DNA of 42,697 nt, from positions 1 to 42,697 of the forward strand of contig JAFAMM010000266.1 in NCBI GenBank assembly GCA_019233375.1. Reading direction: 5' to 3'. Below are positions 18,519 to 37,226 of the stretch, piece after piece. A program made the position numbers and the translations under genes. How positions within the stretch are numbered: the first letter of the stretch is position 1; each line of letters starts with the position of its first letter. A model generated the notes under the pieces. It saw nothing but the letters and a program-made list of their open reading frames with translations. It was not told the DNA's origin and did not search any database. Source of the DNA: Acidobacteriaceae bacterium. GTDB lineage: Bacteria > Acidobacteriota > Terriglobia > Bryobacterales > Bryobacteraceae.

Positions 18519-19691
18519 CTACTTCGTTGAGGAAACATTTCGATCGCCTGGCAGACTAACCCTATTACCGAAGAGCGTTCCGGCGAGCGCCTCGGCGATA
18601 TTCTCGGCGTTCACCGTCTCATTGTTCCCCAAAACAATGACGGCGGCGTTATCGTCCGGAAATCGGGCAATATACGTGCTAAATCCGGGGATGCCTCCGC
18701 CATGGCCGTACTGCCTGTGATTGACCATAGGACCAATCATCCAGCCGTAGCCATAATTGTGCATAACAGGCGTCCACATGCGATCGCGGGCGGACTTACT
18801 CAGGATGCTGTCCGTGTAGAGCGCACGATCCCATTTATAGAGGTCCTGCGCGGTCGAATAAAGGGACCCCGCAGCATATGGAAGAGACATATCAATGTAA
18901 TCCGAGTTGCAAAGGTCGTTACCGCAAGACTTATAGCCCGACACCCGACGCTTGAGGACAACAGCCGTTTCGTCGTACCCGGTGTCGTGCATGTTCAAAG
19001 GGTCAAAGATATGCTTCTTTAAGTAATCTGCGTACTTCTCGCCAGATGCCTTCTCTATGATTATTCCCAGAAGAATATAGCCGCTGTTGTCATATTTCCA
19101 CTGTGTGCCCGGCGGGAAATCAAGCGGCTCATCCTTGGTGAGCAGCAGAACTTCCGAGGGGCTAAGCGGCACGCGGATGAAGTTCGGCTGCCCGAACCGT
19201 TTCATCCGAGTGTAACTTGGTATACCCGAGGTATGACTGAGTAGCTGATGAATGGTGACCTGCTTCCAGGAATCGGGGCACTTATCGAAGTATTTGCACG
19301 CTTTGTCGTCGACTGAGACCTTGTGCTGGGCGGCAAGTTGCAGGATCGCAGCGGATGTGAACTGTTTCGTTATCGAGCCGAGTCGAAACTTTCCATCCGG
19401 CGCGTTAGGAACGCCCCACTCGAGGTCGGCCATGCCGTAGCCCTTCTCAAGCAGAACGCGCCCATCCCTTGCGACCAGAACGGAGCCCATGAAGTGCCGG
19501 TTCGTTTCGAAAGCCGAAAGAACGTGATCGAGTTTCTGGGCAAGGTCTTCCGCCCGTGCCGGCGTCCGAGCGATGAATACAACGAGCAACACCAGGATCC
19601 CGCATAGCGCAGAGTTCGGGTATATACGTTTCGATGGAAGGAACACGTACGGTATACGCACCGGAACTGCCCAGAGTTCAAACCAGTACAC
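18519..19691 (-). CDS. Exported serine hydrolase, beta-lactamase class C / PBP-like
   Basis: SxxK in GSITKQFTSAAILQLAA, YxN in WKYDNSGYILLG, HGG in YGHGGGIPGFSTY; N-terminal hydrophobic segment. Confidence 0.9.
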   Translation of the reverse strand: MYWFELWAVPVRIPYVFLPSKRIYPNSALCGILVLLVVFIARTPARAEDLAQKLDHVLSAFETNRHFMGSVLVARDGRVLLEKGYGMADLEWGVPNAPDGKFRLGSITKQFTSAAILQLAAQHKVSVDDKACKYFDKCPDSWKQVTIHQLLSHTSGIPSYTRMKRFGQPNFIRVPLSPSEVLLLTKDEPLDFPPGTQWKYDNSGYILLGIIIEKASGEKYADYLKKHIFDPLNMHDTGYDETAVVLKRRVSGYKSCGNDLCNSDYIDMSLPYAAGSLYSTAQDLYKWDRALYTDSILSKSARDRMWTPVMHNYGYGWMIGPMVNHRQYGHGGGIPGFSTYIARFPDDNAAVIVLGNNETVNAENIAEALAGTLFGNRVSLPGDRNVSSTK

Positions 19692-19722
19692 TGGTTTCTT
19701 GTCTAAACATTTACAGTCTCAG

Positions 19723-22707
19723 ATGCAATCTCTGTTCATAATCCTTTTCTTCGCTCTGATTTCTGCCTTTCAGCTAAGCGGCCAATCGTTGGGAACCGAT
19801 GCCTTCGCGCGCAATCCGAATCAAGCGGTCAATGAGCAGTATACCGATCACATCCGCAAGTACACGACGAGCCCGAGTTTGAACTCGCCATTGACGAATT
19901 ACCTGCCCGCCTCAAAAGCGGTACCCACCCCGGACAAGGTCTTGGGCGATGTGGCAGGGGCTCCGGACATACTCCCGTATGCCGAAGACGTTTACCGGTA
20001 TTTCCGAATGCTTGCGGCCAGCAGCCCGCGGGTAAAAGTTTTTACAATTGGCCACACGGAGGAAGGTCGCGAAATGATTGCGGCGGCCGTGGCAGACGAA
20101 GCGCTCCTGTCCCGAGTAAGAGACAACGACGAGCGCCTGGCCAAGCTGGGCGACCCGCGCTTAATCGGCATGAACGATGAAACGGCACAAGGTTTGCTCT
20201 CTGGTGCATTTCCGGTTTACTACATCACCGGCACTATACATTCACCCGAAACGGGTGCGCCAACCGCATTGATGGAACTGGCGTACCGCCTTGTGGTCGA
20301 TGACGCACCGTACATCCAGTACATACGGACACATCTGATCACGCTGATCACACCCGTGGTAGAGGTGGATGGCCGCGACCGCATGGTGGATATCTATAAA
20401 TGGCACAAAGCACACCCGAAACAGAACTGGCCACGCCTGATTTATTGGGGTCATTACGTCGCGCACGATAATAACCGCGATGCCATGGGCATGACCCTGA
20501 ACCTCACGAATAACGTTCTCAACACATACCTGAGCTGGCACGCGCAGGTGCTGCATGACTTACATGAATCCGTGCCCTTTATTTACGACAACACTGTCGG
20601 TGACGGACCCTATAACGCATGGATTGACCCGATCTTAGCGGACGAGTGGGCTGCGCTCGGCTGGAACAATGTGCAGCAGCTTCAAAGCTTTGGCATGCCG
20701 GGAGCATTTACGCATGGTGACTTCGATACCTGGAGTCCCGGCTATTTGATGTTTCTTGCGGGACTGCACAACGGCATCAGCCGTCTCTACGAAACCTTCG
20801 GGAACGGCGGCGCCGATACTGAAAAGCGGATACTGAGTCCGGACGAGTATTCACGAACATGGTTCCGGCAGAACCCGCCCTATCCGGTGGTCGAATGGTC
20901 CCAGCGCGATAACAATAACTATGAGGAGACGGCACTTCTCTCCACGCTTTCGTACTTCTCACACAACGCACGTCATTTCCTGGAGAACTATTACCTCAAA
21001 AGCAAACGGTCCATCGAAAAGCCGAAGGATGCGGGTCCGGCCGCGTATGTATTTATGCCTGATGAAGACGCCTTGAACCGGCAGATGCAGCTTTTGAAAG
21101 TGCTCGCGGCACAGCACGTCGAGATTCACCGGTTGACGCAGGCTGCGATCGTAACTATTCCGGCAAAACCAGTCAAGGCGGGGACGGACGACAAAGCAGA
21201 ATCGAAGGCTCCGACGGCACAGACATTCGCTGCAGGCTGTGTTGTCATCCGGATGGACCAGCCATTCTCGCGTGCGGCGGACGCCTTGCTCGACCGGCAG
21301 TACTGGTCACCCGAGGATCCGCAGAAGCACCCTTACGATGACACCGGATGGTCCTTCGGCGATCTGTTCAACGCTAAAGTCGTTCGAGTGACGGATACCT
21401 CGATCCTGACGGCCAAGATGCAGCCCGTCGCCGACTTAGGAACCGCGGTACAGGCACTTGCGGACTCCGGCGCGATTTATGCCGTAAATAACTCGGGGCA
21501 AATTGGGTTGGCGGCTTTGGTTTATGCGCTGAAAGGGGCGGACGTGTCCATCGCGGATCAGCCGTTCGAGGACGGCGGAAAGCGCTTTCGGGCGGGTTCG
21601 ATTGTCATAAGCGGAGCGGGCCGAGAACAATTGAAAGCCGGGCTGCAACGGCTCGACCTTACGGCACGAGTCCTGAGCGCGAAGCCTAAGGTGCCGGCGC
21701 ACGCGGCCGCAACTCCTCGAATCGCGTTCTTGCATACTTGGCTTTATACGCAAACCGAGGGTTGGTGGCGCATGGCATTCGATAAGCTGCAGGTTCCCTA
21801 CGAATACATCAGTACGCAAGCAGCAGCCCGTGAAACAAATCTGCGATCGAAATATGACGTAATTATCTTCGCTCCGGTATCATCGCGCTTTTCCAGTCAA
21901 GAGATCGTGAACGGCTTGCCAATGTGGGGCAATCCGCTGCCGTGGCAAAAAACATCGCTGACTCCGAATCTCGGCGCGATCGATTCGACCGAAGATATGC
22001 GTCCAGGGCTCGGCTATCAAGGCATCGCCCATTTGAAGGAATTCGTGGAGCGAGGCGGCCTGCTCATTACCGCCGAAGATACGGCGCAGTTCGCGATTGA
22101 AGAAGGGCTGGCGCCGGGCGTTTTCGTAGCGCCACGCAAGAACGTCAGGGTTGTCGGCAGCGTTCTTAAAGCCGAACTGGCGGATAAGACCCATCCCGTG
22201 GCATACGGCTATGACGCAGATCTGGCGGTTTACAGCGCTGATGGCATGGCATTTACAGTCAGCAATCTGGTTGTCAACAGGCCGATACTTACGGACAAAG
22301 AATATAAGCGTCCGACCGGGCGCGGAGGACCCGAAGAAGCGGACCTACCAGAGGGCCGTCCTATCCAGCAGCCGCCGGAACTACCTGCGCCGAAGCCATG
22401 GCAGCCAGCAGCGTTAAATGAAGAGCAGGCGCGAAACAACCCGTTCCTCATACCGGAGCAGTACCGGCCGAATGTCATCCTTCGCTATTCGGAGGCGAAG
22501 AGTCTTCTGATTTCAGGACTGCTCGAAAACGGCGGCGCGATAGCGGAACTGCCGCTGGTGGTCGATGCGCACCTGGGAAGCGGGGATGTTCTGCTGTTTG
22601 CAAACAATCCTGTCTATCGGGGCGAAACAATTGGCAGTTACGGACTCGTTTTCAACGCAATTATGAATTACGATCATTTGGCCAATCGGGCGCCGGCCGG
22701 CCAGTAG
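19723..22707 (+). CDS. Exported M14-family zinc carboxypeptidase-like protein
   Basis: Signal peptide MQSLFIILFFALISAFQLSGQS; FTIGHTEEGREMIAAAV, zinc-site-like ITGTIHSPETGAPTALMELAYRL, DLHESVPFIYDN. ATG 19723 preferred; the 19573 start overlaps the divergent gene. Confidence 0.85.
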   Translation: MQSLFIILFFALISAFQLSGQSLGTDAFARNPNQAVNEQYTDHIRKYTTSPSLNSPLTNYLPASKAVPTPDKVLGDVAGAPDILPYAEDVYRYFRMLAASSPRVKVFTIGHTEEGREMIAAAVADEALLSRVRDNDERLAKLGDPRLIGMNDETAQGLLSGAFPVYYITGTIHSPETGAPTALMELAYRLVVDDAPYIQYIRTHLITLITPVVEVDGRDRMVDIYKWHKAHPKQNWPRLIYWGHYVAHDNNRDAMGMTLNLTNNVLNTYLSWHAQVLHDLHESVPFIYDNTVGDGPYNAWIDPILADEWAALGWNNVQQLQSFGMPGAFTHGDFDTWSPGYLMFLAGLHNGISRLYETFGNGGADTEKRILSPDEYSRTWFRQNPPYPVVEWSQRDNNNYEETALLSTLSYFSHNARHFLENYYLKSKRSIEKPKDAGPAAYVFMPDEDALNRQMQLLKVLAAQHVEIHRLTQAAIVTIPAKPVKAGTDDKAESKAPTAQTFAAGCVVIRMDQPFSRAADALLDRQYWSPEDPQKHPYDDTGWSFGDLFNAKVVRVTDTSILTAKMQPVADLGTAVQALADSGAIYAVNNSGQIGLAALVYALKGADVSIADQPFEDGGKRFRAGSIVISGAGREQLKAGLQRLDLTARVLSAKPKVPAHAAATPRIAFLHTWLYTQTEGWWRMAFDKLQVPYEYISTQAAARETNLRSKYDVIIFAPVSSRFSSQEIVNGLPMWGNPLPWQKTSLTPNLGAIDSTEDMRPGLGYQGIAHLKEFVERGGLLITAEDTAQFAIEEGLAPGVFVAPRKNVRVVGSVLKAELADKTHPVAYGYDADLAVYSADGMAFTVSNLVVNRPILTDKEYKRPTGRGGPEEADLPEGRPIQQPPELPAPKPWQPAALNEEQARNNPFLIPEQYRPNVILRYSEAKSLLISGLLENGGAIAELPLVVDAHLGSGDVLLFANNPVYRGETIGSYGLVFNAIMNYDHLANRAPAGQ

Positions 22708-22713
22708 CTAATT

Positions 22714-23496
22714 TCATTTAGGCCGGAGTTTGATCTGAAAAAGCTTTGGCCATAACTTGCCTGTGACAAACAGCCGGTCACCCATTGAGTCATAGGCGAT
22801 GCCGTTCAGCACATCGACATTACCCGATCTATCCTCTCTTGAAAGGAGACCCGAAAGGTCAATCCATCCCAGTACGCGCCCGTCGCTGGGAGAGATTTGC
22901 ACAATGCGGTCGGTTGCCCAGATGTTAGCGTAGAGTTCGCCCCGAACGCACTCAAGCTCGTTCAAGCGCTCGATGTTCTCTTGGCCATCAGTGACGGTGA
23001 ACCGCCGGACTTCGGCTAGAGTCAACGGATCAAGAACGCGGATGATGGCGGTTCCGTCGCTCATGTAAAGGAATTGCCCGTCGTTGGCGAGGCCCCAGCC
23101 TTCTCCTGGATACGAGAAAGTCTTCAACAGGCGAAACGTCGTCTGATCATAGACGAACCCCTCGTGGGACTGCCACGTGAGCTGAACGATGCGGCCGTTT
23201 TCAACCGTGATGCCTTCGCCGAAATACTGCTCCGGCAAAGTGAGTTCCTCCAAGATTTTTCCCGTCTCCAGTTCTTCTTTTCGCAAAGTAGACCTGCCAT
23301 GAAGGCCGGTGCCTTCATATACAAATCCGCCTCGGTATTCAAGACCCTGGGTGAACGCGGAGGGATCGTGAGGAAAGACTCTTGCCACCTCGAAACCATA
23401 GACGGGAATCGTTCCGCGGGTCGCATGTGAGCCGAAAGCGAATTCGCAAAGGCCGGCCAGCAGGGCGGCCACAAGCACGTAATTCGTACGTGTCAA
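22714..23496 (-). CDS. Glutaminyl-peptide cyclotransferase (glutamine cyclotransferase)
   Basis: HDPSAFTQGLEYRGGFVYEGTGLHGRSTLRKEELETGKILEELTLPEQYFGEGITV...QLTWQSHEGFVYD...EGWGLANDGQFLYMSDGTA...LNELECVRGELYANIWATDRIVQI. TTG start overlapping an upstream small-ORF stop. Confidence 0.92.
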   Translation of the reverse strand: MTRTNYVLVAALLAGLCEFAFGSHATRGTIPVYGFEVARVFPHDPSAFTQGLEYRGGFVYEGTGLHGRSTLRKEELETGKILEELTLPEQYFGEGITVENGRIVQLTWQSHEGFVYDQTTFRLLKTFSYPGEGWGLANDGQFLYMSDGTAIIRVLDPLTLAEVRRFTVTDGQENIERLNELECVRGELYANIWATDRIVQISPSDGRVLGWIDLSGLLSREDRSGNVDVLNGIAYDSMGDRLFVTGKLWPKLFQIKLRPK

Positions 23497-23687
23497 AGCA
23501 AGTGTGCGCGTCCGAGCAGATGCCGGCAGATCAGATGCCGCCTACGAGTCTCGTCAAGCTGCGTGAGAAGGGTCATGCAGCGGGAACCTGGCGTTTGGCT
23601 CTGCTCCCGTCTCTCTTCTCGAACTTGCCGCATGTCTGGCTCTGACTGATACTCCTTTTGGATTCTCCGGTATGTCTTTCGGACCAT
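23493..23687 (-). CDS. Uncharacterised small basic protein (64 aa)
   Basis: MVRKTYRRIQKEYQSEPDMRQVREERREQSQTPGSRCMTLLTQLDETRRRHLICRHLLGRAHLL. ATG 23687 preceded by AGAGGAGGAG (SD core AGGAGG at 23697-23702, 9-nt spacing); stop TGA overlaps the next gene's TTG start (TTGA). Confidence 0.5.
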   Translation of the reverse strand: MVRKTYRRIQKEYQSEPDMRQVREERREQSQTPGSRCMTLLTQLDETRRRHLICRHLLGRAHLL

Positions 23688-23812
23688 TTCGCCACTCCTC
23701 CTCTAACGATTTGGACGCCTGCAGTGGGAAAAGGGGCCGCGAACTCGAACTCTTCGGAGCAGCCGGATGACCAGATTCTATCGAAAATACCCGGAAGTAG
23801 TTAGGCCGCACC

Positions 23813-25159
23813 TTATGCGCGCAGCGTCTTCGTTTCGGCGTCAAAGTACACCGTCTGCCCGCGGAAATACGACTCGTTGGCCATATGGCAAGCGATGGCG
23901 GCATGATTTCCAAAGACCGCATCCTCGGCAACCGGCTTCCGGCTCTTTACCGCTTGGAAGAATGTCCAGAGGTGCGGGCGCACATCGTCCCAATCATTGC
24001 CCTGGTACACGGTTTGATCTGTAATAGGTTCGCGCCAAGACGGGCCGTGCTCGCGATACCAGGTTGCATCGTACTCTGCGCGCATCTGCTGCGGAAAGCT
24101 GCTGGCGTAATAACTGGGCGAAGTGTCGGTCCCGCTCTGCGCAATAATTCGAAGCTCGGTGCCGCTCGCCTCCATCACTCCTTTGGGTCCCAGAAATCGT
24201 GCCATCTCAGGCGTCTCGGCGCCCAGACTGAGACGAACGTAGACGGGGACGCCATGATAGTCGAACAAGACGGTTTGCAGGTCCGGCATATTGCGACCGT
24301 CTTTCCATCGAACAATGCCGCCTAATGCTGTGGCGGAACGGGGCGCCTCGTTCCAGCCCAGCGTGAACAGCATACCGCTGAGCAAGTGGACCATCAGGTC
24401 GCCCGCGACGCCGGTGCCGTATTCCTTCCAGCAGCGCCAGCGCGCGAACCGATACTTATCAAAGGGGATTTTGGGCGCATCGTTGAGCCAAGTTTCCCAG
24501 TCGATTACTTCGGCTGAAGCGTCCAGAGGCGGAGGGTATTCCCACGCTCCTGTAGGGCTGTTGCGGCCCAGGCTGAGCTCAACCATCTCAATTTCGCCGA
24601 TCGCACCTGAATGGTAGAGATCACGCGCCTTGGCACACAGCATGGAGCTGACACGCTGTGAACCGATCTGCACAATGCGCTGGTTCTTTTGGGCCGCCTC
24701 GACCATGGCAAAGCCTTGCCGAATGGCATGCGACATTGGTTTTTCGCAGTAGATGTCTTTGCCTGCGCTGCAGGCGTCCACGACGACGCGCATGTGCCAG
24801 TGGTCAGGAACGGCGGCGACGATGCAATCGACATCTTTGCGCTCGAGCACTTCGTGGTAGCGCCGCGTGACAGGAAGTTCCAAATTGCCAGTGATCTGGC
24901 GTGCAAGCGTGTGCCGGCCGTCGTAGAGCTCTGCCGCAGCCACGCACGTGATTCCCGAAAGCGTAATAGCGTTCGATAGCAATCCCGATCCCTGCATCCC
25001 GACCCCGATCATGGCAAATCGGACGCGGTCCGTGGAAGTACTCTGCCCGGCGGATTCCGCCATCGCAGTCTCGTGCAGCATTATGGGAGCAGCCACAGTT
25101 CCGGCCACCATCGCGTGCTTTAGAAAATCACGGCGTGGCAAGTACTTCTTTGTAGACAT
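23813..25159 (-). CDS. Gfo/Idh/MocA-family oxidoreductase with Tat signal
   Basis: MSTKKYLPRRDFLKHAMVAGTVAAPIM (RRDFLK), FAMIGVGMQGSGLL, DCIVAAVPDHWHMRVVVDACSAGKDIYCEKPMSHAIRQG. Confidence 0.92.
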   Translation of the reverse strand: MSTKKYLPRRDFLKHAMVAGTVAAPIMLHETAMAESAGQSTSTDRVRFAMIGVGMQGSGLLSNAITLSGITCVAAAELYDGRHTLARQITGNLELPVTRRYHEVLERKDVDCIVAAVPDHWHMRVVVDACSAGKDIYCEKPMSHAIRQGFAMVEAAQKNQRIVQIGSQRVSSMLCAKARDLYHSGAIGEIEMVELSLGRNSPTGAWEYPPPLDASAEVIDWETWLNDAPKIPFDKYRFARWRCWKEYGTGVAGDLMVHLLSGMLFTLGWNEAPRSATALGGIVRWKDGRNMPDLQTVLFDYHGVPVYVRLSLGAETPEMARFLGPKGVMEASGTELRIIAQSGTDTSPSYYASSFPQQMRAEYDATWYREHGPSWREPITDQTVYQGNDWDDVRPHLWTFFQAVKSRKPVAEDAVFGNHAAIACHMANESYFRGQTVYFDAETKTLRA

Positions 25160-25226: not shown

Positions 25227-27329
25227 TCAACGCCCTTGCAGGTTGTGGATGAAGAAGTCCGTTGCGGAATCGAGAGCTGTGCCATCAAGGCGCTCCACTT
25301 GCTTCAAGCTTGCTTGCCGCGCGGCGTTGCCCAGCTCAGAAAACAGCTCAGAAATGTTGGCGGGATCGACTGCTTTATCCTCGGCGATCGCCACGATCAG
25401 AAGTTTTCCTCGCAGCTTCGAAGCCGCTTCGAGCGGGGACGACTCGTCATATTCTTCGGCGTGATTCTGCGCGAGTCCAATATAGCGTTCTGTATAAGCT
25501 GCGTTGTAAAGACGCCAATCCACGATGGGCGAGATGGCAACGCCGGCTTTGAAGTCCTCAGGATCTTCAAACAGCGCGTGCAGCGCGAGCTGCGCCCCAT
25601 ATTGCATGCCCGCGACACCAATTCTGGAAGAGTCTATATAGGGAAGACCGCGGAGATATTGAATGGCATCGCGCTGGTCAGATATTTCCTGAGCGCCCAA
25701 ACGGCAGTGAATCGGCTCTTCAAATAAGTGCCCGTGCCCCCCGGACCCCCTGTTATCGACCGCGAAGATGATAAACCCCTTGCGAGCCATGGCTTCCTGC
25801 CAAAGAAAGAGCGCGCCGCCCCAAGCGTTACGAACGGCCTGCTCATGCGGGCCGCCAGCCATCCAAAGAATCACCGGGTACGTTCGCGTGGCCGTGAAAT
25901 CAGGCGGCCTGATCATTTCGGCGTTTAGAGACACTCCATCATGTGCCTGGATATTGATGAAGTGGACAGGCGAGGGCGGCGCGGAATATGAGGCGCTCCC
26001 GCCGTCAAGAGACGAAATCACCTGGCCATCGGTACGAAACAGGCTTCGCGTGGGCGCGGACATCGCTGAGGAACAGATATCGGCAAAGGATTGGGCGTTG
26101 GGTGACAAACTGACGAGGTGCCAGCCATCGGGACCGGTAACGCGTACGGGTTCCGAACCAGTTAGAGAAGTGCGGTAGAGTTGCCGCTCTAACGGGCTGG
26201 CGCGAGTCGCCGTAAAATAAATCTCCGACGCTTTCTCGTCAACGCCGGTTAGCGATGATACCTCCCAACTTCCGTTTGTAAGCTGGCGTAGCAACTTACC
26301 TTGAACATCGTACAAATAAAGTTGCCGGTACCCACTGCGTTCGCTCGACCAAATGAAGCGCTCGGCATCTTTGAAGAAGTAAAGATCGTCGCTTACGTTG
26401 ATCCAATAATCGTCTCGTTCCTGAATGACCGTGTGCGATTCTACGGTGGTAGTGTCCGCGATAATGAGATCGAGCATCGTTTGCGACCGGTTCAGCCACT
26501 GCAGAGCCAGCCGCGAACTATCCGGCATCCAGTTCACTCGGACGATATAGCCCTCCCGTGTGACCGTATTGACGGTCGATACCGGCTGACCATCCAGATG
26601 GGCGATCAGAACTCGTACCACTGGAATCGGATCGCCGACCCTCGGATAGAATCCTGGGCGGCTGGCTGGCTGCTTGCTGTGATCTATTTCCAGCAATGCA
26701 ATGGCGGACGAATCTGGAGCCCACCAGTAAGCATGACGCAGTGAAAATGCCTCCTGATAGAGCCAGTCGGGCTCTCCCTCCAGGATCTTCGCCGATGGAT
26801 TCTTCGTGACGGCCTTTACGCCGCTTCCTTTGACGCTCGCGACCCAAAGGTTGTTATCGCGTACGAAACTGATCCACCGGCCATCGGGCGAGATCTGGCC
26901 GTCAAAGATGGCACGGCCTCCCGAAACCAGCGTTCTCACTGTGTGTTGCTTTAGATTCAGCCAGAGCAGCGTGGTGTTCGACGTGATCAAGAGGGCATCA
27001 CCGCGGGGAGCCCATTGATAGCTGCGGATCACCGGCAATACAGGGAGGCCGGGATGATCTGCAGGACTGCAGATCGATGCGAGAACATGTCGATGACCGC
27101 TCTTCACATCTGCTGACCACAATTTTGCGGCGCTTTCGCCAGGCCCGGATGTCTGCACCCAAGCGATCCGGCTCCCATCTGGGCTCCACGCGAAGTTGGA
27201 CGTGAAGTCCGGCTGGTCCATAACGGCCTGTTGCGCTGGTGCTTGTGCCACGTTATCCGCAGCTGCCAGACTGCGCAATAGCACTAAAGCCGACAGACCG
27301 AAAAGTGGTTTGAGGGATAACCGCCTCAT
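25227..27329 (-). CDS. S9/DPP-IV-like protein with degraded catalytic residues (probable pseudo-enzyme)
   Basis: DPP-IV propeller (FTSNFAWSPDGSRIAWVQ; DWLYQEAFSLRHAYWWAPDSSAIALLEID) and alpha/beta-hydrolase fold (VILWMAGGPHEQ, FAVDNRGSGGHGHLFEEPIHCRLGAQEISDQRDAIQYLRGLPYIDSSRIGVAGMQYGAQLALHAL). Expected GWSYGG reads GMQYGA. Confidence 0.85.
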   Translation of the reverse strand: MRRLSLKPLFGLSALVLLRSLAAADNVAQAPAQQAVMDQPDFTSNFAWSPDGSRIAWVQTSGPGESAAKLWSADVKSGHRHVLASICSPADHPGLPVLPVIRSYQWAPRGDALLITSNTTLLWLNLKQHTVRTLVSGGRAIFDGQISPDGRWISFVRDNNLWVASVKGSGVKAVTKNPSAKILEGEPDWLYQEAFSLRHAYWWAPDSSAIALLEIDHSKQPASRPGFYPRVGDPIPVVRVLIAHLDGQPVSTVNTVTREGYIVRVNWMPDSSRLALQWLNRSQTMLDLIIADTTTVESHTVIQERDDYWINVSDDLYFFKDAERFIWSSERSGYRQLYLYDVQGKLLRQLTNGSWEVSSLTGVDEKASEIYFTATRASPLERQLYRTSLTGSEPVRVTGPDGWHLVSLSPNAQSFADICSSAMSAPTRSLFRTDGQVISSLDGGSASYSAPPSPVHFINIQAHDGVSLNAEMIRPPDFTATRTYPVILWMAGGPHEQAVRNAWGGALFLWQEAMARKGFIIFAVDNRGSGGHGHLFEEPIHCRLGAQEISDQRDAIQYLRGLPYIDSSRIGVAGMQYGAQLALHALFEDPEDFKAGVAISPIVDWRLYNAAYTERYIGLAQNHAEEYDESSPLEAASKLRGKLLIVAIAEDKAVDPANISELFSELGNAARQASLKQVERLDGTALDSATDFFIHNLQGR

Positions 27330-27358
27330 TCAGGCCCTTTCACATTTGAGGCTTGAGA

Positions 27359-30300
27359 TCAGGGCGTGAATGTCCACGTCAGGATCTCCTGGTTTGCCGT
27401 GGATGAGCCAGTGCCTCCTGTAAACCCGATGTAGGCTGTGTTGCCACCGACAATAGACGGTATGTTTACCGTCCACTGAGTCGTAAAGCTTAAGCTCTTC
27501 GCGGCATCGCTGATTGTCATTGATAAGGTCGTGCCATCGTAAGTCATCTGCACGCTAAGGACATCGCCGCTATGCAGACTCACGCCCGTGATCGTTGTGG
27601 CCGGCAAGGTTGGCATAGCTCCGTTCGTGTACAGGCCGGTGGAGTTCGATCCTTCGCCAGCGTTGCTATACAGGTCAAACTTTACAGCGACGCTATTTGG
27701 AATGCCGTTTTTGCCATTCGTCGTTGTGGGGCCGTATCCCAGTGCACCGCCCAAGGCACCCAGGGCAGTCGGCCCGTTTGATTGAATCGTGAAGGTAAAT
27801 CCGTCGGCGTTCGGCTTGGTTAATTGAAAAGTGAAATTGTTAGTAAAAGTCTGAATATTCACGGGTACGTCGAAAAATGCGCTACCTTTTTCCATGCTGC
27901 CGCCATTCGTCAATTGCAGGCGCGAGCCATCGAGCGCGGCACTTCCATTCAGAGTAACGGCAGTTGATGAACCGACAAAGCCGTTTGCGAAATTGACGCC
28001 CGTACTTCCCGTCTGAATCGAATACGCAGCGGAGACCACCGGGCTGTTCGCAAGGCCGCTGGCTGCCGCCATTGCTTTGATCGTGGTTGCCGAGTTAACG
28101 GCAATGGGCCCCGCATACACGGATGAAGAGGTAGTAGGAGTAGTTCCGTCCAGCGTGTAGTAAATGATGGCATTGGGAGTAGTATCTGAAATGGACACGG
28201 TTTGCGCTGAGGTGTAAGTGCCGGCTGCGGGCGAGAAGACGGGATTCGCCGTTTCCGGGGAGTTAACTGTCAACGTAACGGCTGCTGTCTGGGTCAAAGA
28301 TCCCGATGTCCCGATAATCGTGATTGGAACGGAGCCCGTTGCCACTGAACTTGTCACTGAGAACGTGGCGGTGCTGGTGGTTGAGGTACTTGTAGGGCTG
28401 AATGTAACGCTAATACCGCTGGGCAAGGTGGAGGTGGATAGCTGTACGGCCCCGGTGAATCCATACTGGGGTGTCACCTGCACGGTTGCTGTCGCGCTTG
28501 CGCCCTGCGTTATGCTTACGCTGGACGGCGAGGCTGAAAGCGTGAAATTCGGGGATGGTACGGTGTACGTTGCGCTGGCAACGGCACTGGGCGCGAAGTT
28601 AGTTGCCGTTGCAATCGCCTGGATGGTGGTGGTGCCCGACAGAGAGATGGGCCCAGTATATGGAAGAGACGAGCTACTGGGCGTGGTGCCATCCGTTGTG
28701 TAGAAGATTGAAGCTCCTGTTGTTGTGTCACTGATGGTTACGGACTGAGGCAGCATATACGTCCCAGCCGCGGGACTGAGAACCGGAGTATTCGCCTGAG
28801 GATTCGCCGTGGGGACGAAAGTCCACGTTTCTATCTTTTGGCTTGCCGTCTGAGATCCGGTTCCGCCCGTAAAGCCGACATACGCGACATTGCTGCCGAC
28901 CGCTGCCGGAATGTTAACGGTCCATTGCGTCGAGAAGGTGACGTTTTTCACACCATCCGTAATTGTCATCTTCAGGGTCGTGCCGTCATAGGTCATATGG
29001 ACCGACATCGTGTCGCCGCTATGCAGGTTGACTCCCGTGATGGTGGTCGCGGGAACAGTTGGCATCGCTCCGTTGGTGTACACGCCCGTCGAATTCGATC
29101 CCTCGCCTGCGTTATTGTACAAGTCAAATTTCACCGCAACGCTCTTCGGAATGCCGCCCGTCCCGCCTGCTGATGACGGTCCATACCCCAGACCGCCGCC
29201 CAGCCGGCCGAGAGCAGTGGGGCCGTTCCCTTGAATGGTGAATGTGAAACCGTCCGCGTTCGGATTGCTGATTTGAAAAGTGAAGTCGTTTGTGAACGTC
29301 TGAATGCCGACGGGAGTGTTATAGAAGGCGCTCCCCGCCTCGCTTTGTCCGCCGTTGGTGAGTTGCAGCCGCGAGTCGTCGAGTGTTGTACTTCCATTGA
29401 AGGTCATGCTCGAGGACGACGTGCTAAATCCGTTTGCGAAGTTGATGAAGTTGCCCGTAATTGTGTAAGTGCCGGTTATGACCGCGCTACTAATATCTCC
29501 GCTTTTCATGCCTATGGCGTTGATTGTTGTTGTGGAGCTAACTGTTATGGGTGCGGTATAGACCGTCGAAGATGCCGTGGGCGTGCTGCCGTCCAGAGTG
29601 TAATAGATGATGGCATTCGGGGTGGTATCGGAAATAGATACGGTTTGAGTGGCGGCGTAAGCTCCCGGAGCTGGAGAGAAGACCGGGGCGGCTACCTGAT
29701 CCAGCAACGTAAAGGTAGCGCTCGCGATAGAACTTTGCAAATAGCCGGTCGCGCTGGCGATTGCGTTTATGGTGGTAGTGGTGCTTACCGTAATCGGGCC
29801 AGAGTAGACTTGCGACGCTATATTAGGCGTGGACCCATCCGTTGTGTAAAAGATAACCGCCCCCGGTGTGGCATCGCTGATCGTCAGTGATGTCGATCCG
29901 AGAAATGAGGTGCCGGGAGGACTAATGACCGGAGCGGCAGCCTGCGGTGTCTGGCCGAGCAAGCCATACACGCTGAACTGCTTTTGCGCGCCCACGTATA
30001 CTTTCCCGTTGGCTACCACTGGAACGGTGAACTTAACTGCCGGGCCTGGATTATCGCGGCCCAAATTCTGATTACTCGAATACAACGTGGTGGCGACGTT
30101 TGTTGCATCGTGAGCCTGTAGTACGGCGGATCCATTTACGTTGTAGGCGTCGGTCTGAACCGTCCAAACGATGGCATTCGAGTTCGCCAGAGCAGAAACC
30201 ACCGGTGTCGAGCCTGGATAATTAGAGGTTTCCGACGAAACCGACGTCGGAGTTGTCGAAAGGAGACCACCATTAAATGAGAATGCCTTTAGGTGGTCGC

Positions 30301-31609
30301 CCCTTCCCCAGAAATAGACATTATTATTCCAATAGGCCGGCATGCTCCAGAGGCCTTTAATTTGGTTCGTGATTTCCTGTACAACATTGTCAGACGTTGT
30401 GCTGTACCCGCCCATGTTGTCACGGTCAACCAAATAAATACTGCCTTGCTTTCCGGCTTGTACCAAAAGATGGGTATGGCCGCCGGAGGTTTGGTCGGGG
30501 AGCAGCAGCACACCCCCGGAAGCCACGTCTAAGTCAGCACCCTGAAGGCTGAATTGGTTGTAAGGGGTGAAGGAATCTTCGATGACGGGTACTCCGTTGG
30601 TTAAATCAAGCCGGAGATGATCATCACCGAAGCTCATGCTGTTCGTGTACGGGGCCGATGCGCTGTATGACCCGTTGCCGGTGGCCACGAACATACGGCC
30701 GAACGGCGAATTGACCGGGTCAATGACGTCTGCGGCCAGGCCCGAGCCGGCCATCCAGATACCCGATCCAGTACCATTCGGAGTAGTGCAGTACACGCCC
30801 GTTTGCTGCAGAGTCTGGGCATTGTATGCCAGAATCCAACCGTGCCAAGGTCCGTTATCACCATGCGACCCGAAAGCGGCGTAAACAATCCCGTTTTGTA
30901 GGAGAAGACCGGCCCGGTTATTTGCCCACTTAGGGTCAAAGTGCAGCATTCCCCCGGAGCTTCCATTGCCGGTTCCGGGCACCGCTGCCGATATAACCAC
31001 CGGCCCTCCAAACTTTTCCGCCCCGGTGGTGATGTCTAACGCATGAAGGCGCTGAACGGCATTCCCCGCCTCTTTTGTCTGCCCGATCAGGTACATTGTG
31101 CCCGAAACGGGGTCGATCACAGGGGTTGAAGTAATGCCTATTTCCGGAACGAGGTCGGCGCTGCTTACGTCCGAGCTGGGCTCGGTGGTGGCCCCGGCAG
31201 CGGCACCGTGAGCGCTGTCGAGCAACGTAATGTGCCAGAGTGGCGTGGCATTGGTTCCGCCATTGTTGTCGGCGTCGAAAGCGTAAACGCTATCGTGCTC
31301 GGTTGCGATGAAAACGACATTGTGTGTTCCATTTCCCGGGATTGTCAGATTCGGGATGTAGAGTGGCTGCGCATAAATGTAGCCATCCACCAACGTTGTG
31401 AACAATTTTCCGAATGTCGCGGTATTGATATTAGACGGTGTTAGCGTGCTCTCGTTTAAGTTCGCGCCACTTCGGTAGTTGTCGTAATGCTGCGTCACTA
31501 CGCTTACCTGGGCAAATAGGCCCAGAGACGGGAGTAATAGTGCGGCAATCAACCGCGAGACGCTATAAACTAATTTATCGGGATATCCAGAGAAATATTT
31601 GCACATCAT
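27359..31609 (-). CDS. Large exported mosaic: PQQ-like beta-propeller, four CHB_HEX_C-like repeats, Ig-like module, two L-type-lectin-like domains
   Basis: Signal-like N-terminus; VVTQHYDNYRSGANLNESTLTPSNIN...; repeated (S/A)PVxSPxxGxYxxxQxVxISDTTPxAxIYYTxDGxTPxxSSxxYxGPIxV; lectin-like units NFANGF...LDxSRLQLTNGG...SVAVKFDLYxNAGEGSNSTGxYTNGAMPTxPATTITGVxLHSGD. Confidence 0.85.
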   Translation of the reverse strand: MMCKYFSGYPDKLVYSVSRLIAALLLPSLGLFAQVSVVTQHYDNYRSGANLNESTLTPSNINTATFGKLFTTLVDGYIYAQPLYIPNLTIPGNGTHNVVFIATEHDSVYAFDADNNGGTNATPLWHITLLDSAHGAAAGATTEPSSDVSSADLVPEIGITSTPVIDPVSGTMYLIGQTKEAGNAVQRLHALDITTGAEKFGGPVVISAAVPGTGNGSSGGMLHFDPKWANNRAGLLLQNGIVYAAFGSHGDNGPWHGWILAYNAQTLQQTGVYCTTPNGTGSGIWMAGSGLAADVIDPVNSPFGRMFVATGNGSYSASAPYTNSMSFGDDHLRLDLTNGVPVIEDSFTPYNQFSLQGADLDVASGGVLLLPDQTSGGHTHLLVQAGKQGSIYLVDRDNMGGYSTTSDNVVQEITNQIKGLWSMPAYWNNNVYFWGRGDHLKAFSFNGGLLSTTPTSVSSETSNYPGSTPVVSALANSNAIVWTVQTDAYNVNGSAVLQAHDATNVATTLYSSNQNLGRDNPGPAVKFTVPVVANGKVYVGAQKQFSVYGLLGQTPQAAAPVISPPGTSFLGSTSLTISDATPGAVIFYTTDGSTPNIASQVYSGPITVSTTTTINAIASATGYLQSSIASATFTLLDQVAAPVFSPAPGAYAATQTVSISDTTPNAIIYYTLDGSTPTASSTVYTAPITVSSTTTINAIGMKSGDISSAVITGTYTITGNFINFANGFSTSSSSMTFNGSTTLDDSRLQLTNGGQSEAGSAFYNTPVGIQTFTNDFTFQISNPNADGFTFTIQGNGPTALGRLGGGLGYGPSSAGGTGGIPKSVAVKFDLYNNAGEGSNSTGVYTNGAMPTVPATTITGVNLHSGDTMSVHMTYDGTTLKMTITDGVKNVTFSTQWTVNIPAAVGSNVAYVGFTGGTGSQTASQKIETWTFVPTANPQANTPVLSPAAGTYMLPQSVTISDTTTGASIFYTTDGTTPSSSSLPYTGPISLSGTTTIQAIATATNFAPSAVASATYTVPSPNFTLSASPSSVSITQGASATATVQVTPQYGFTGAVQLSTSTLPSGISVTFSPTSTSTTSTATFSVTSSVATGSVPITIIGTSGSLTQTAAVTLTVNSPETANPVFSPAAGTYTSAQTVSISDTTPNAIIYYTLDGTTPTTSSSVYAGPIAVNSATTIKAMAAASGLANSPVVSAAYSIQTGSTGVNFANGFVGSSTAVTLNGSAALDGSRLQLTNGGSMEKGSAFFDVPVNIQTFTNNFTFQLTKPNADGFTFTIQSNGPTALGALGGALGYGPTTTNGKNGIPNSVAVKFDLYSNAGEGSNSTGLYTNGAMPTLPATTITGVSLHSGDVLSVQMTYDGTTLSMTISDAAKSLSFTTQWTVNIPSIVGGNTAYIGFTGGTGSSTANQEILTWTFTP
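27362..27998 (-). repeat. C-terminal copy of the duplicated lectin-like domain
   Basis: Encodes NFANGFVGSSTAVTLNG...VKFDLYSNAGEGSNSTGLYTNGAMPTLPATTITGVSLHSGD...QEILTWTFTP, closely matching 28812-29452. Boundaries approximate. Confidence 0.8.
28812..29452 (-). repeat. Internal copy of the duplicated lectin-like domain
   Basis: Encodes NFANGFSTSSSSMTFNG...VKFDLYNNAGEGSNSTGVYTNGAMPTVPATTITGVNLHSGD...QKIETWTFVP. Boundaries approximate. Confidence 0.8.
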
Positions 31610-33791: not shown

Positions 33792-36700
33792 ATGAAGGCC
33801 AGAAGCTTTCCGATTGCAGCATGCATCGGGTTTGCACTTCTTTCGATCTGTTCGCCGGGTTTTGGACAGATTACAGCCACGATTTCGGGAACCATTACCG
33901 ACGCGAGCGGCGCCGCGGTAGCTGGCGCGAAGATCGTTGTCACGTCGCCGGCAACCGGGGCCTCCCGTGAAGCAGTAAGCGACAACGACGGGCACTATGT
34001 AGTTCCCTTGCTGCCGGTCGGAAACTACGCCATCCGGGTGGATATTAAGGGTTTCCGCAGTGAGGAAGCCAGAAATGTGGTCTTGCAGACGAACGAGCAG
34101 CGTGAACTGAACTTTACGGTCTCACCAGCCTCAGTTCAGCAAACGGTCGAGGTAAGCGCGGCTCCGGTTGCCGTCGAAACCGCTAACCCGACGCTCGGTC
34201 AGGTCATTACCTCTCAGCAGGTGGCAGAACTTCCGCTCAACGGCCGCGACTTTGTACAGTTGGCGACACTAACACCCGGAACCGTTCAGGAGACAAATCC
34301 GCAAAGCTTCTTCAATGGCGGCCCGAGCAGCGAGGTTTCGGCGCGGGGCTCATTTTCGCTTTCGGTCGGCGGCTCGCGCGCAAACAGCACGGATTGGCTA
34401 CTGGATGGCAACGATAACAACGAGCTGACTGCGGGCGGAATCGCTATCCTTCCCTCTATCGACGCCATTCAGGAATTCAAGGTTCTGACCTATAACTATT
34501 CCGCCGAGTATGGTCTCCGCGCGGGTCCTACGGTTCTGGTGACGACGAAATCCGGAACAAACCAGCTCCACGGCTCGGCTTTTGAGTTTTTCCGGAACAC
34601 CGATCTGGATGCAAGAAGCTTCTTTGCGTCCTACACGGAACAGTTCAACTTGAATCAGTTTGGCGGTTCGGTGGGCCTGCCCCTCAAGAAAGACAAGACG
34701 TTCCTTTTTGCCGACATTCAGAACAAAATGCAGCGCCACGGGATACCGTTTACCGGTCTGGTTCCGAGCACGGCCATGCGAAACGGAGATTTCACGGAGG
34801 ATCCGTTCGGAAATCCACGGTCAGGATTTCTCATCAACCCCAACGTGACGGGCGCGGCCAATACGGCGTTTCAATGCGACAGCGCAGGGAATCCGATGCC
34901 GGCGAACGCAGACGGGAGCCAACCCGCCGGCATAAGCTGCAACAAGATTCCAGCCGGCTTGATCAACTCTATCGGTCAGAAAATGATCAACTTGTATCCC
35001 TTGCCTAACGCCAATAATGCCGCACTCGGGTACAACTATGTGAACGAGCCCGTCCGTAAGTTAAACGAGGGAGAATTCGACGTGCGCCTCGACGAAAACT
35101 TCTCCAGCAAAGACAGCGCGTTCGCCCGTTTTAGTTACGATCAGGCTAACTCTTTCGTTCCCGGAGGTTCGCCGGGATTTGCAGAGGCCAATCCGTTTGG
35201 CAGCAATCAAGTTATCTTAAATCACGGCCGCAATGTGGTTGCTTCGGAAACTCACGTTTTTTCCCCGAACACCGTAAATCAGGTGATCGGAGGTTATAAC
35301 CGGATCTTCAACTATATTTCGTCGCAGGGTAGCTATAGCTGTATATCGGCCGCGTTTGGAATTCCAGGCGCAAACCTCGGCGGGGTGAGCTGTGGACTTA
35401 CCTCCACCCAATTATCCGGCGGCTATTGGTCGTTAGGCGACCGAGGGTTTTCCCCGTTTCAGGGCGGTACGAACGTTTTCACCATAGCCGATACGCTGGA
35501 CATGGTGAGAGGCCAACACGATCTCAGAGTGGGCGGCGCAATCATCGCTAACCAGATGAATGTCATGACGGAAGGCTTTCAGGATGGTTATTGGATCTAT
35601 AGCGGAGCCTGGACCGGTGATGCGGAGGGAGACCTGCTCATGGGCTTCCCCAGCCTGGCTATTCATGACCAGACCTTCGATGGAAATGTAACTGGCCGGC
35701 GCTGGAAATCATACCGCCCGTTTATTCAGGACAACTGGCAAGTCAACAAAAGTCTGACGCTCAATCTCGGTCTGGCGTACGTTCTGACCACGCCGATAAC
35801 CGAAGTTTTTAATCGCCAGGCTGACTTTAACCCTGCAACAGCCACGTTCCTCATTCCGGGCCAGAACGGCGTCGGCGCCACCGCCGGCATTCAGTATGAC
35901 AAGACAGCCTTTGAGCCGCGCATCGGAGTTGCATGGAAGGCGTTCGGCCATGTGAACACGGTAATTCGCGGCGGATACGCTATTTTCCACGACTCGTCGT
36001 GGAACCAGGGAGCGCAAGGATTGTGGCAGAATCCGCCTTATTATGCGGAGTCCGATCAATTTGCATTTGGCGGCGGCTGTACCTTCGCGACTGCCGCGTG
36101 CGCCACCATCTACGGCAAGACACCCACCGCCATCAGCGCATCATCCGGATTTCCGATTTTCACCTCGCCACCCAACCCTTCCGACTTCACCGGAACCATC
36201 CAAGCGCAGAACGTAAATTTCAAGCTGGGCCAGGTGCAGCAGTACAACGCGAACCTCCAGCAGCAGTTGCCGGGCAGCATTGTACTTACGGTCGGCTACG
36301 CCGGATCGCGCAGTTCGCATATCCTGATCGACGGGAACAATATGAACGTCGGTTCGCCTACGGCTTGCGGCACCGTCTCCGGCTATACGTTGGGTTGTGG
36401 TCCCGGCGGCTCTGCATTCGGCGTACCGTATACTGCTTTCCCGTTTTCCACCATCTCCAATATCAGCGATATCGGGAAAGCCCACTACAATTCTTTTCAA
36501 GTCAAAGCGGAGACGCAAAACGATAAGTACGGCCTATATGCACTGATCGGGTACACATACGCGCGTGCTTACGACAACGGCTTTACGGATGGCCTGGGTT
36601 CGCTGATCGGCGCTACTTACTATCCACTGCCGAATTGGCCCAAACTGGATTGGGGTCTTTCCCAGATCAATCTCGACAATACTTTTACGGCGAGTATCAT

Positions 36701-37226
36701 CTATCAGCTCCCGTTTGGGCACGGTAAGCGCTTTGGGAGCAATTGGAACGGCGCGATGAACCAGTTACTAGGAGGCTGGCAGATCAACATAATTGAAAGA
36801 GCGATCTCCGGATTTCCGGTCTTCATTGTCGACAGCAACAACTTATCCGGCGTCAATTTCCAAAATAACGGCAATAGCCTGAATCGCCCGAATCAGACGT
36901 GCAATCCGAAATCCGGCCCGAACAGCCTGGCCGAGTTCTTTAACACCTCGTGCTTCGCGGCGCCGCCTTCGGGAGAACTTGGCAACGCATCGCGAACACC
37001 GCTATCCGGTCCTGACTTCGTCAATACTGATTTTTCGGCGATCAAGAATTTCGCGCTGCCCCGTGAAAACATGCAACTGCAATTCCGGACCGAAATCTTC
37101 AATCTCTTCAACCATGCGCAATTCGGGCAGCCCGGCGGTGATATCAATTCAGCGACATTTGGCGTGATCAATACGACCGTCGGCAACCCACGCGTCATTC
37201 AGTTTGCCCTGAAGTTCCTGTTTTGA
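33792..37226 (+). CDS. TonB-dependent receptor with N-terminal carboxypeptidase-regulatory-like domain (Oar-like)
   Basis: Signal peptide; ATISGTITDASGAAVAGAKIVVTSPATGASREAVSDNDGHYVVPLLPVGNYAIRVDIKGF; VAELPLNGRDFVQLATLTPGT; C-terminal LPRENMQLQFRTEIFNLFNHAQFGQPGGDINSATFGVINTTVGNPRVIQFALKFLF. SD GGAAGGGAT before ATG. Confidence 0.92.
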   Translation: MKARSFPIAACIGFALLSICSPGFGQITATISGTITDASGAAVAGAKIVVTSPATGASREAVSDNDGHYVVPLLPVGNYAIRVDIKGFRSEEARNVVLQTNEQRELNFTVSPASVQQTVEVSAAPVAVETANPTLGQVITSQQVAELPLNGRDFVQLATLTPGTVQETNPQSFFNGGPSSEVSARGSFSLSVGGSRANSTDWLLDGNDNNELTAGGIAILPSIDAIQEFKVLTYNYSAEYGLRAGPTVLVTTKSGTNQLHGSAFEFFRNTDLDARSFFASYTEQFNLNQFGGSVGLPLKKDKTFLFADIQNKMQRHGIPFTGLVPSTAMRNGDFTEDPFGNPRSGFLINPNVTGAANTAFQCDSAGNPMPANADGSQPAGISCNKIPAGLINSIGQKMINLYPLPNANNAALGYNYVNEPVRKLNEGEFDVRLDENFSSKDSAFARFSYDQANSFVPGGSPGFAEANPFGSNQVILNHGRNVVASETHVFSPNTVNQVIGGYNRIFNYISSQGSYSCISAAFGIPGANLGGVSCGLTSTQLSGGYWSLGDRGFSPFQGGTNVFTIADTLDMVRGQHDLRVGGAIIANQMNVMTEGFQDGYWIYSGAWTGDAEGDLLMGFPSLAIHDQTFDGNVTGRRWKSYRPFIQDNWQVNKSLTLNLGLAYVLTTPITEVFNRQADFNPATATFLIPGQNGVGATAGIQYDKTAFEPRIGVAWKAFGHVNTVIRGGYAIFHDSSWNQGAQGLWQNPPYYAESDQFAFGGGCTFATAACATIYGKTPTAISASSGFPIFTSPPNPSDFTGTIQAQNVNFKLGQVQQYNANLQQQLPGSIVLTVGYAGSRSSHILIDGNNMNVGSPTACGTVSGYTLGCGPGGSAFGVPYTAFPFSTISNISDIGKAHYNSFQVKAETQNDKYGLYALIGYTYARAYDNGFTDGLGSLIGATYYPLPNWPKLDWGLSQINLDNTFTASIIYQLPFGHGKRFGSNWNGAMNQLLGGWQINIIERAISGFPVFIVDSNNLSGVNFQNNGNSLNRPNQTCNPKSGPNSLAEFFNTSCFAAPPSGELGNASRTPLSGPDFVNTDFSAIKNFALPRENMQLQFRTEIFNLFNHAQFGQPGGDINSATFGVINTTVGNPRVIQFALKFLF

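Follow-up and report, generated by a model that had tools for sequence, protein, structure and literature searches.

DPP10 and DPP6 are inactive vertebrate proteins of the S9B family that serve as auxiliary subunits of Kv4 channels and whose role is the binding of another protein; S9B enzymes are dimers. Within the conserved fold, the position of the catalytic Ser is occupied by Gly in DPP10 and by Asp in DPP6, and enzymatic function is not restored by reinstating the Ser (PMC4350108). For the vertebrate proteins, it is an open question why the peptidase fold has been retained in the absence of catalysis. In the open-access literature, we found no match for inactive bacterial DPP IV or for Acidobacteria propeller proteins carrying legume-type lectins.

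Here we have analysed a window of 42,697 nucleotides from an Acidobacteriaceae bacterium (contig JAFAMM010000266.1), which on its minus strand contains an intact open reading frame (25227-27329) encoding a DPP-IV-like protein of 700 residues with a signal-like N-terminus that lacks the catalytic Ser of the family. The original prediction of such a protein in an intact 700-residue frame is borne out with respect to gene, frame and fold, although the span that it assigned (25227-25640) covers the C-terminal part of the gene alone. The translation, as read by eye, starts with a probable Sec signal peptide (about residues 1-24, MRRLSLKPLFGLSALVLLRSLAAA; 27258-27329, minus strand), followed on the same strand by a DPPIV_N β-propeller domain (residues 124-422; 26064-26960; Pfam PF00930, 8.7e-81) and a Peptidase_S9 α/β-hydrolase domain (residues 513-672; 25314-25793; Pfam PF00326, 9e-31). 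The presence of both domains places the protein in S9B, as does its best match in the PDB, the DPP IV from Pseudoxanthomonas (6.4e-95), with bacterial DPP IV enzymes as its top solved relatives. An AlphaFold2 model, calculated from a 19-sequence alignment drawn from its own and related genomes, has a pLDDT of 87 and a pTM of 0.87, and matches DPP IV (5yp4) in Foldseek with a TM score of 0.89 and the inactive human DPP10 and DPP6 with a score of 0.81. The motifs DNRGSG, FEEPI and DWRLYNAAYTERYIGL, all described as preserved in the original prediction, are found in the protein.

The active site presents a different picture. For its description we use the residue numbering of human DPP4, counted back from the C-terminus of that protein, which we take to be correct and which is consistent with the alignment to 5yp1; all coordinates refer to the minus strand. 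The position of the catalytic Ser630, which is a Ser in all 73 aligned Ser-bearing relatives, is occupied by Gln576 in the elbow GMQYGA, encoded as predicted by the codon CAA at 25602-25604. Opposite the catalytic His740 we find Asp682 (25284-25286), in a region with a local gap of about nine residues, and no His in a GxxHG context, so that the claimed loss of the triad His stands with the reservation of a gapped alignment. Conversely, the catalytic Asp, which had been regarded as lost, is retained: Asp651 (25377-25379) in the stretch AIAEDKAVD aligns with Asp708 of S9B enzymes, and the pairing of this stretch with HGTSDDNVH in the original prediction likewise sets its D over the first D of the motif. 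The adjacent Asp709-Asn710 are replaced by Lys652-Ala653 (25371-25376). A further change, which had been overlooked, concerns the oxyanion hole, where Tyr547 is replaced by Ala491 (25857-25859). The double-Glu anchor for the substrate N-terminus (Glu205-Glu206), located in a YPEEL motif in relatives, reads YQEA and is incomplete; the change of motif was thus correctly recognized, but of the two anchor residues the first is kept as Glu193 and it is the second that has become Ala194 (26748-26753).

Proteins without the catalytic Ser are not confined to the window. Among 237 genomes of the same family (f1), the nearest matches were found in two genomes of another genus (G158 and G159), with 45-50% identity depending on the alignment, followed by two from the genus of the window (G025 and G024; 39-43%). 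Their elbows read GMNYGG in the first two, GIGYGG in G025 and GCDYGA in G024, which with the window protein makes Q/N/N/G/D at the position of Ser630, in a patchy distribution of 5 out of 237 genomes. A class-wide sample of 399 genomes added many Ser-bearing relatives in family f7 and the Ser-less G454 in family f11, and searches of f11 contributed eight more Ser-less members (G558, G581, G675, G651, G666, G646, G716 and G679). None of the nine f11 proteins carries a Ser at this position, which is Gly in eight and Glu in one; eight of the elbows read GWGYGG and that of G581 reads GEGFGG. A scan of genome contigs yielded four loci, too few to be used alone. The 14 Ser-less proteins, which come from two families within the same Acidobacteriota class, make up a single clade with a support of 100/99, which splits into f1 and f11 branches and is nested inside the Ser-bearing f7 radiation, with the surrounding relatives carrying GWSYGG, DDNV and GHG motifs. 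Since the Ser-less sequences constitute one clade in all three DPP-IV trees, including the smaller ones, there is no need to invoke several independent losses, although long branches of 0.8-1.3 changes per site in several members advise caution with respect to long-branch attraction; the genomic pairing described below is independent evidence. With this caution, the conclusion holds that the loss of the Ser is old and does not reflect decay, the S9B ancestor probably having lost its nucleophile once, before the split of f1 and f11.

Other functional residues were lost in differing combinations across the clade, which concerns His740, Tyr547, Asn710 and the Glu pair. Asn710 is absent from all Ser-less members compared, the position of His740 reads D/E/E/H/Y in f1, and most members retain the catalytic Asp, as several do the His. 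In the most divergent f11 protein, G581 (L148:2644-11285), which carries the GEGFGG elbow, the catalytic Asp is gone as well and there is no His.

To compare scaffold and active site, we used the 105 alignment columns with at least 95% conservation among the 73 Ser-bearing relatives, 91 of them outside and 14 inside the active site. The window protein keeps 77 of the 91 outer columns and 7 of the 14 inner ones (Fisher p=0.0067). Across the five f1 members, the corresponding ranges are 68-82 (75-90%) and 5-7 (36-50%), with p values for the contrast between 0.0001 and 0.01. In the aligned f1 Ser-less proteins, the scaffold is thus held while the active site is released. The pair G158 and G159 (80% identical), the only Ser-less proteins close enough for the estimate, shows a dN/dS of 0.14 by both NG86 and YN00, which falls within the range of 0.06-0.19 obtained for Ser-bearing pairs (NG86), and the reading frames are open in all 14 members. 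An S9B fold kept over evolution without its catalytic Ser is represented by a clade of 14 members (100/99), with the dN/dS of 0.14 referring to one pair. With nucleophile and other catalytic residues lost in various ways and a scaffold that is intact and under selection, the comparison provides good support for a pseudo-peptidase rather than a decaying gene, as originally proposed, and the members of the clade are presumably catalytically inactive. Close orthologues with GWSYGG, which in the original prediction would have indicated a rapid loss in this gene, were not encountered, the nearest orthologues being all Ser-less, even if their replacements (N, N, G and D) differ from the Gln found here; the dN/dS analysis that it had suggested speaks for constraint in the one measurable pair. 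We can discard a sequencing error or decay, since the change from a Ser codon (TCN or AGY) to CAA requires at least two base changes and thus no single miscall would suffice, the frame is open and the loss is common to the orthologues.

Directly upstream of the Ser-less gene, on the same strand, resides a gene encoding a putatively secreted protein of 1416 residues (27359-31609, minus strand), whose orthologues are found beside the Ser-less gene elsewhere. The two genes are separated by 29 bp (27330-27358) and are probably part of one transcript, in line with their co-directional order in all five f1 members, and both products are predicted to be secreted. The N-terminal part of the larger protein (about residues 45-555; 29945-31477, minus strand) was modelled by AlphaFold2 as a propeller of the eight-bladed type (pLDDT 86), which in Foldseek resembles PQQ alcohol dehydrogenases and BamB with TMq values of 0.45-0.56; the corresponding PQQ match in Pfam is weak (0.0032) and was obtained for one orthologue only. 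Pfam further recognizes four CHB_HEX_C_1, four Fn3_assoc and two legume L-type lectin domains (PF18483), the latter at 28826-29416 (6.0e-18) and 27383-27964 (5.5e-18) on the minus strand, with each domain alone below the curated cut-off and the whole protein above it.

This arrangement recurs across genomes. The Ser-less gene adjoins the gene of a very large, putatively secreted protein in 12 of the 14 genomes; this protein usually carries carbohydrate-binding modules, and in nine of the genomes it has a PQQ/BamB-type propeller at its N-terminus. In f1, it is located directly downstream of the propeller gene on the same strand in 5 out of 5 cases and, the two congeneric genomes apart, the remaining neighbours of the pair vary. 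Distal modules of the f1 neighbours comprise chitobiase-C/Fn3 repeats and a legume-type lectin in the window, G158 and G159, a ricin-type lectin in G024, and Ig-like repeats with no recognised lectin in G025. In f11, a propeller-lectin gene is divergently oriented in G558, G651, G646 and G679, where in the last case the contig ends inside the propeller. A divergent neighbour with chitobiase-C/Fn3 repeats but a different N-terminus is found in G454, G666 and G716, with a lectin in the first two; as judged by eye, these pairs sit among glycosyltransferase-like genes, with a UDP-galactopyranose-mutase-like gene beside that of G454. No partner-like gene adjoins the Ser-less gene in G581 and G675. 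Among Ser-bearing relatives, such a gene was found in none of 64 loci (75 loci minus genomes appearing twice) within a flank of mostly 1.5 kb and in some cases up to about 9 kb; one exception beyond the flank is a propeller paralogue in G105, one ORF away from a Ser-bearing DPP-IV (L127). The difference between 12/14 and 0/64 corresponds to a Fisher p of 2e-12, which is an upper bound on the evidence because members share descent. The linked propellers fall into one subclade of their family (100/99), together with further, unlinked copies from G024 and a single one from G184. In the propeller tree, the propeller of the window groups with G158/G159 and G025 with G024, as in the first DPP-IV tree, whereas later DPP-IV trees place the window protein with G025/G024, albeit weakly (89/70 and 91/62), and the congruence inferred from the two sets of trees is therefore approximate.

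The propeller itself belongs to a large paralogous family, which in f1 is found in 65 of 237 genomes at 1e-100, with several copies each and with C-terminal modules that are very varied (NHL, TIG, Ig-like, lectins) and nearly devoid of Pfam coverage. A general association of such propellers with S9 proteins can be dismissed, as no Ser-less DPP-IV lies beside the paralogues in 20 other loci. Only two of the paralogue loci have an S9 neighbour, of another kind, and these offer weak hints. In G042 (L122:9662-15073), the gene 76 bp downstream of a propeller paralogue codes for an S9 protein of 888 residues from a different subfamily, which has a complete GGSYGG motif as well as a DUF3108 tail and may represent another case of propeller-S9 pairing, and in G131 (L126:9139-13377), a paralogue is convergent with a Ser-bearing S9 peptidase of 657 residues at a distance of 7 bp.

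Downstream of or near the pair (19573-25159), the window also encodes a Gfo/Idh/MocA oxidoreductase with a Tat-like leader, a glutamine cyclotransferase, a 1044-residue protein with an M14 carboxypeptidase domain and a protein of the β-lactamase family (S12-like); as conserved partners these were rejected since the other loci do not share them. Beside the pair, on the plus strand (33792-37226), lies the gene of a 1144-residue outer-membrane β-barrel with a CarboxypepD_reg domain (OMP_b-brl_4, 4.7e-206), and in G025 a protein 27% identical to it is encoded at a distance of about 6 kb from the pair (L041:1-3168). Four Ser-less loci of f11 (L097, L160, L162 and L164) have a common set of glycosyltransferase-like and other genes, similar to an exopolysaccharide locus, and share a protein of 845-864 residues, to which the divergent partner of G454 is similar in its N-terminal part. 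In G581, a WecG/TagA-like gene adjoins the Ser-less gene, with a gene for a pro-kumamolisin-type protease nearby.

In light of a neighbour that was kept in two arrangements, and of the precedent of DPP6 and DPP10, we consider it most economical that the Ser-less protein is a non-catalytic partner of the secreted propeller and carbohydrate-binding protein, a reading to which we assign a probability of roughly 55%. On the sequence level, it builds on the loss of catalytic residues, the single clade, purifying selection and a pairing in two gene arrangements, which leaves the absence of activity, secretion, the physical complex and a glycan target as its conjectural parts. In the scenario that we envisage, a single event would have deprived an Acidobacteriota S9B dipeptidyl-peptidase of its nucleophile, in the common ancestor of a clade that today spans two or more families of the class, whereupon the active site would have drifted, with the two-domain scaffold remaining under purifying selection. 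The protein would have become associated with a secreted partner of very large size, in which carbohydrate-binding modules mostly follow a PQQ/BamB-type propeller and for which it may act as non-catalytic subunit or as export or folding partner. Both proteins would be made together and leave through Sec, and the propeller and hydrolase surfaces of the S9B protein might dock on the partner and so help to assemble its lectin modules or to present them at the cell surface or within an exopolysaccharide matrix. Against such a partnership weighs the fact that G581 and G675 lack the adjacent partner. Most propeller paralogues in f1, moreover, have no adjoining S9 gene, and the partner type is thus independent of the Ser-less protein. 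As the distal modules vary between legume lectin, ricin lectin and Ig-like repeats, any glycan target is not conserved.

Alternatively, the protein could be a pseudo-enzyme for the binding or sensing of peptides, whose pocket captures Xaa-Pro-type N-termini uncut and passes them on. The window protein, as compared with the 73 Ser-bearing relatives, retains Tyr631, Trp659, Tyr662 and Tyr666 along with one anchor Glu, which speaks for such a function. We nevertheless regard it as unlikely, since it predicts that the pocket is best conserved, whereas across the clade few parts are conserved as poorly as the pocket, with a Glu pair that reads EA/HE/HE/AA/HE in f1, Tyr662 and Tyr666 replaced by S and F in G025, and Asn710 lost throughout. 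In a different scenario, the protein would form a regulatory subunit in a heteromer and tune a catalytically active S9B paralogue present in that cell. Two Ser-bearing paralogues (L002 and L003) are indeed found in the genome of the window, and pairs of dead and active paralogues with mutual regulation exist in other families (PMC5201418). Yet L002 and L003 show an identity of only 34% and 32% with the window protein and are located on other contigs, the paralogues most like the Ser-less ancestor turned up in another family (f7), and it is with the propeller-lectin gene that the Ser-less gene has a conserved link in the genome, all of which renders this arrangement improbable. The long branches and the patchy distribution in f1 would also suit a slowly decaying relic that has stayed intact beside its neighbour by chance or hitchhiking, but 14 open frames out of 14, the dN/dS of 0.14 and a partner that adjoins in two orientations although other flanking genes differ make this a poor explanation. 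Other α/β-hydrolases, such as haloalkane dehalogenases and epoxide hydrolases, employ an Asp as nucleophile. A hydrolytic activity with a different nucleophile, as conceivable from the Asp at the elbow of G024 and the triad Asp and His still found in members of the clade, is highly improbable given that the Ser position varies between Q, N, N, G, D, E and eight further G, of which Gly and Gln are no nucleophiles, that the His position also varies in f1, and that DPP6 carries an Asp at the same place and yet is inactive (PMC4350108).

The non-catalytic partnership would have consequences beyond this locus. The pairing with a large secreted and probably sugar-binding protein in 12 of 14 genomes is a new finding, which suggests that an old enzyme fold has been reused as a binding partner, and it draws attention to an as yet undescribed module in soil Acidobacteriota, consisting of two genes for secreted proteins. 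A Ser-less clade of independent bacterial origin, of clonable size and adjoined by an obvious candidate partner, offers a second natural experiment on the question raised by DPP6 and DPP10. It also cautions that S9 homologues labelled as dipeptidyl-peptidases in genomes of soil Acidobacteriota include dead ones.

Among known systems, bacterial DPP IV enzymes (5yp1 and 5yp4 from Pseudoxanthomonas, 2ecf from Stenotrophomonas) share with the window protein the domain order, the fold and about 30% identity, but contain the full Ser-Asp-His triad and both anchor Glu, whereas Ser, His, Tyr547 and one Glu are missing from the window protein. Its Ser-bearing sister sequences in f7 (such as L035 and L046) are 44-47% identical, yet carry complete GxSYGG, DDNVH and GHG motifs and have no propeller-lectin neighbour at any locus examined. 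Cyanobacterial pseudo-orthocaspases similarly are bacterial variants of a protease family with replaced catalytic residues (PMC6426788), although their fold and lineage are unrelated. Parallels are also found in DPP10 and DPP6, whose Gly and Asp at the Ser position recur in G025 and eight f11 members and in G024, respectively; Tyr547 is also lost in DPP10, and we propose that in both cases a peptidase fold was kept as partner of another protein. Unlike the bacterial proteins, which judged by their N-termini would be secreted, DPP10 and DPP6 are type II membrane proteins with a channel as partner instead of a candidate propeller-lectin protein, they are 22-23% identical to the window protein in the structure match, and the latter additionally lacks the His and the full anchor Glu pair. 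As the Ser-less clade falls among Ser-bearing proteins from Acidobacteriota with 44-47% identity, in trees that included no animal sequences, its origin as judged from these trees and identities is separate from that of DPP6 and DPP10. We thus tentatively put forward a bacterial counterpart of the DPP6/DPP10 system that would have arisen independently of animals, in which a dead S9B peptidase may have become the dedicated partner of a glycan-binding, secreted propeller-lectin protein, in a pair that would have outlived both the rearrangement from an operon to a divergent gene order and repeated swaps of its lectin modules.
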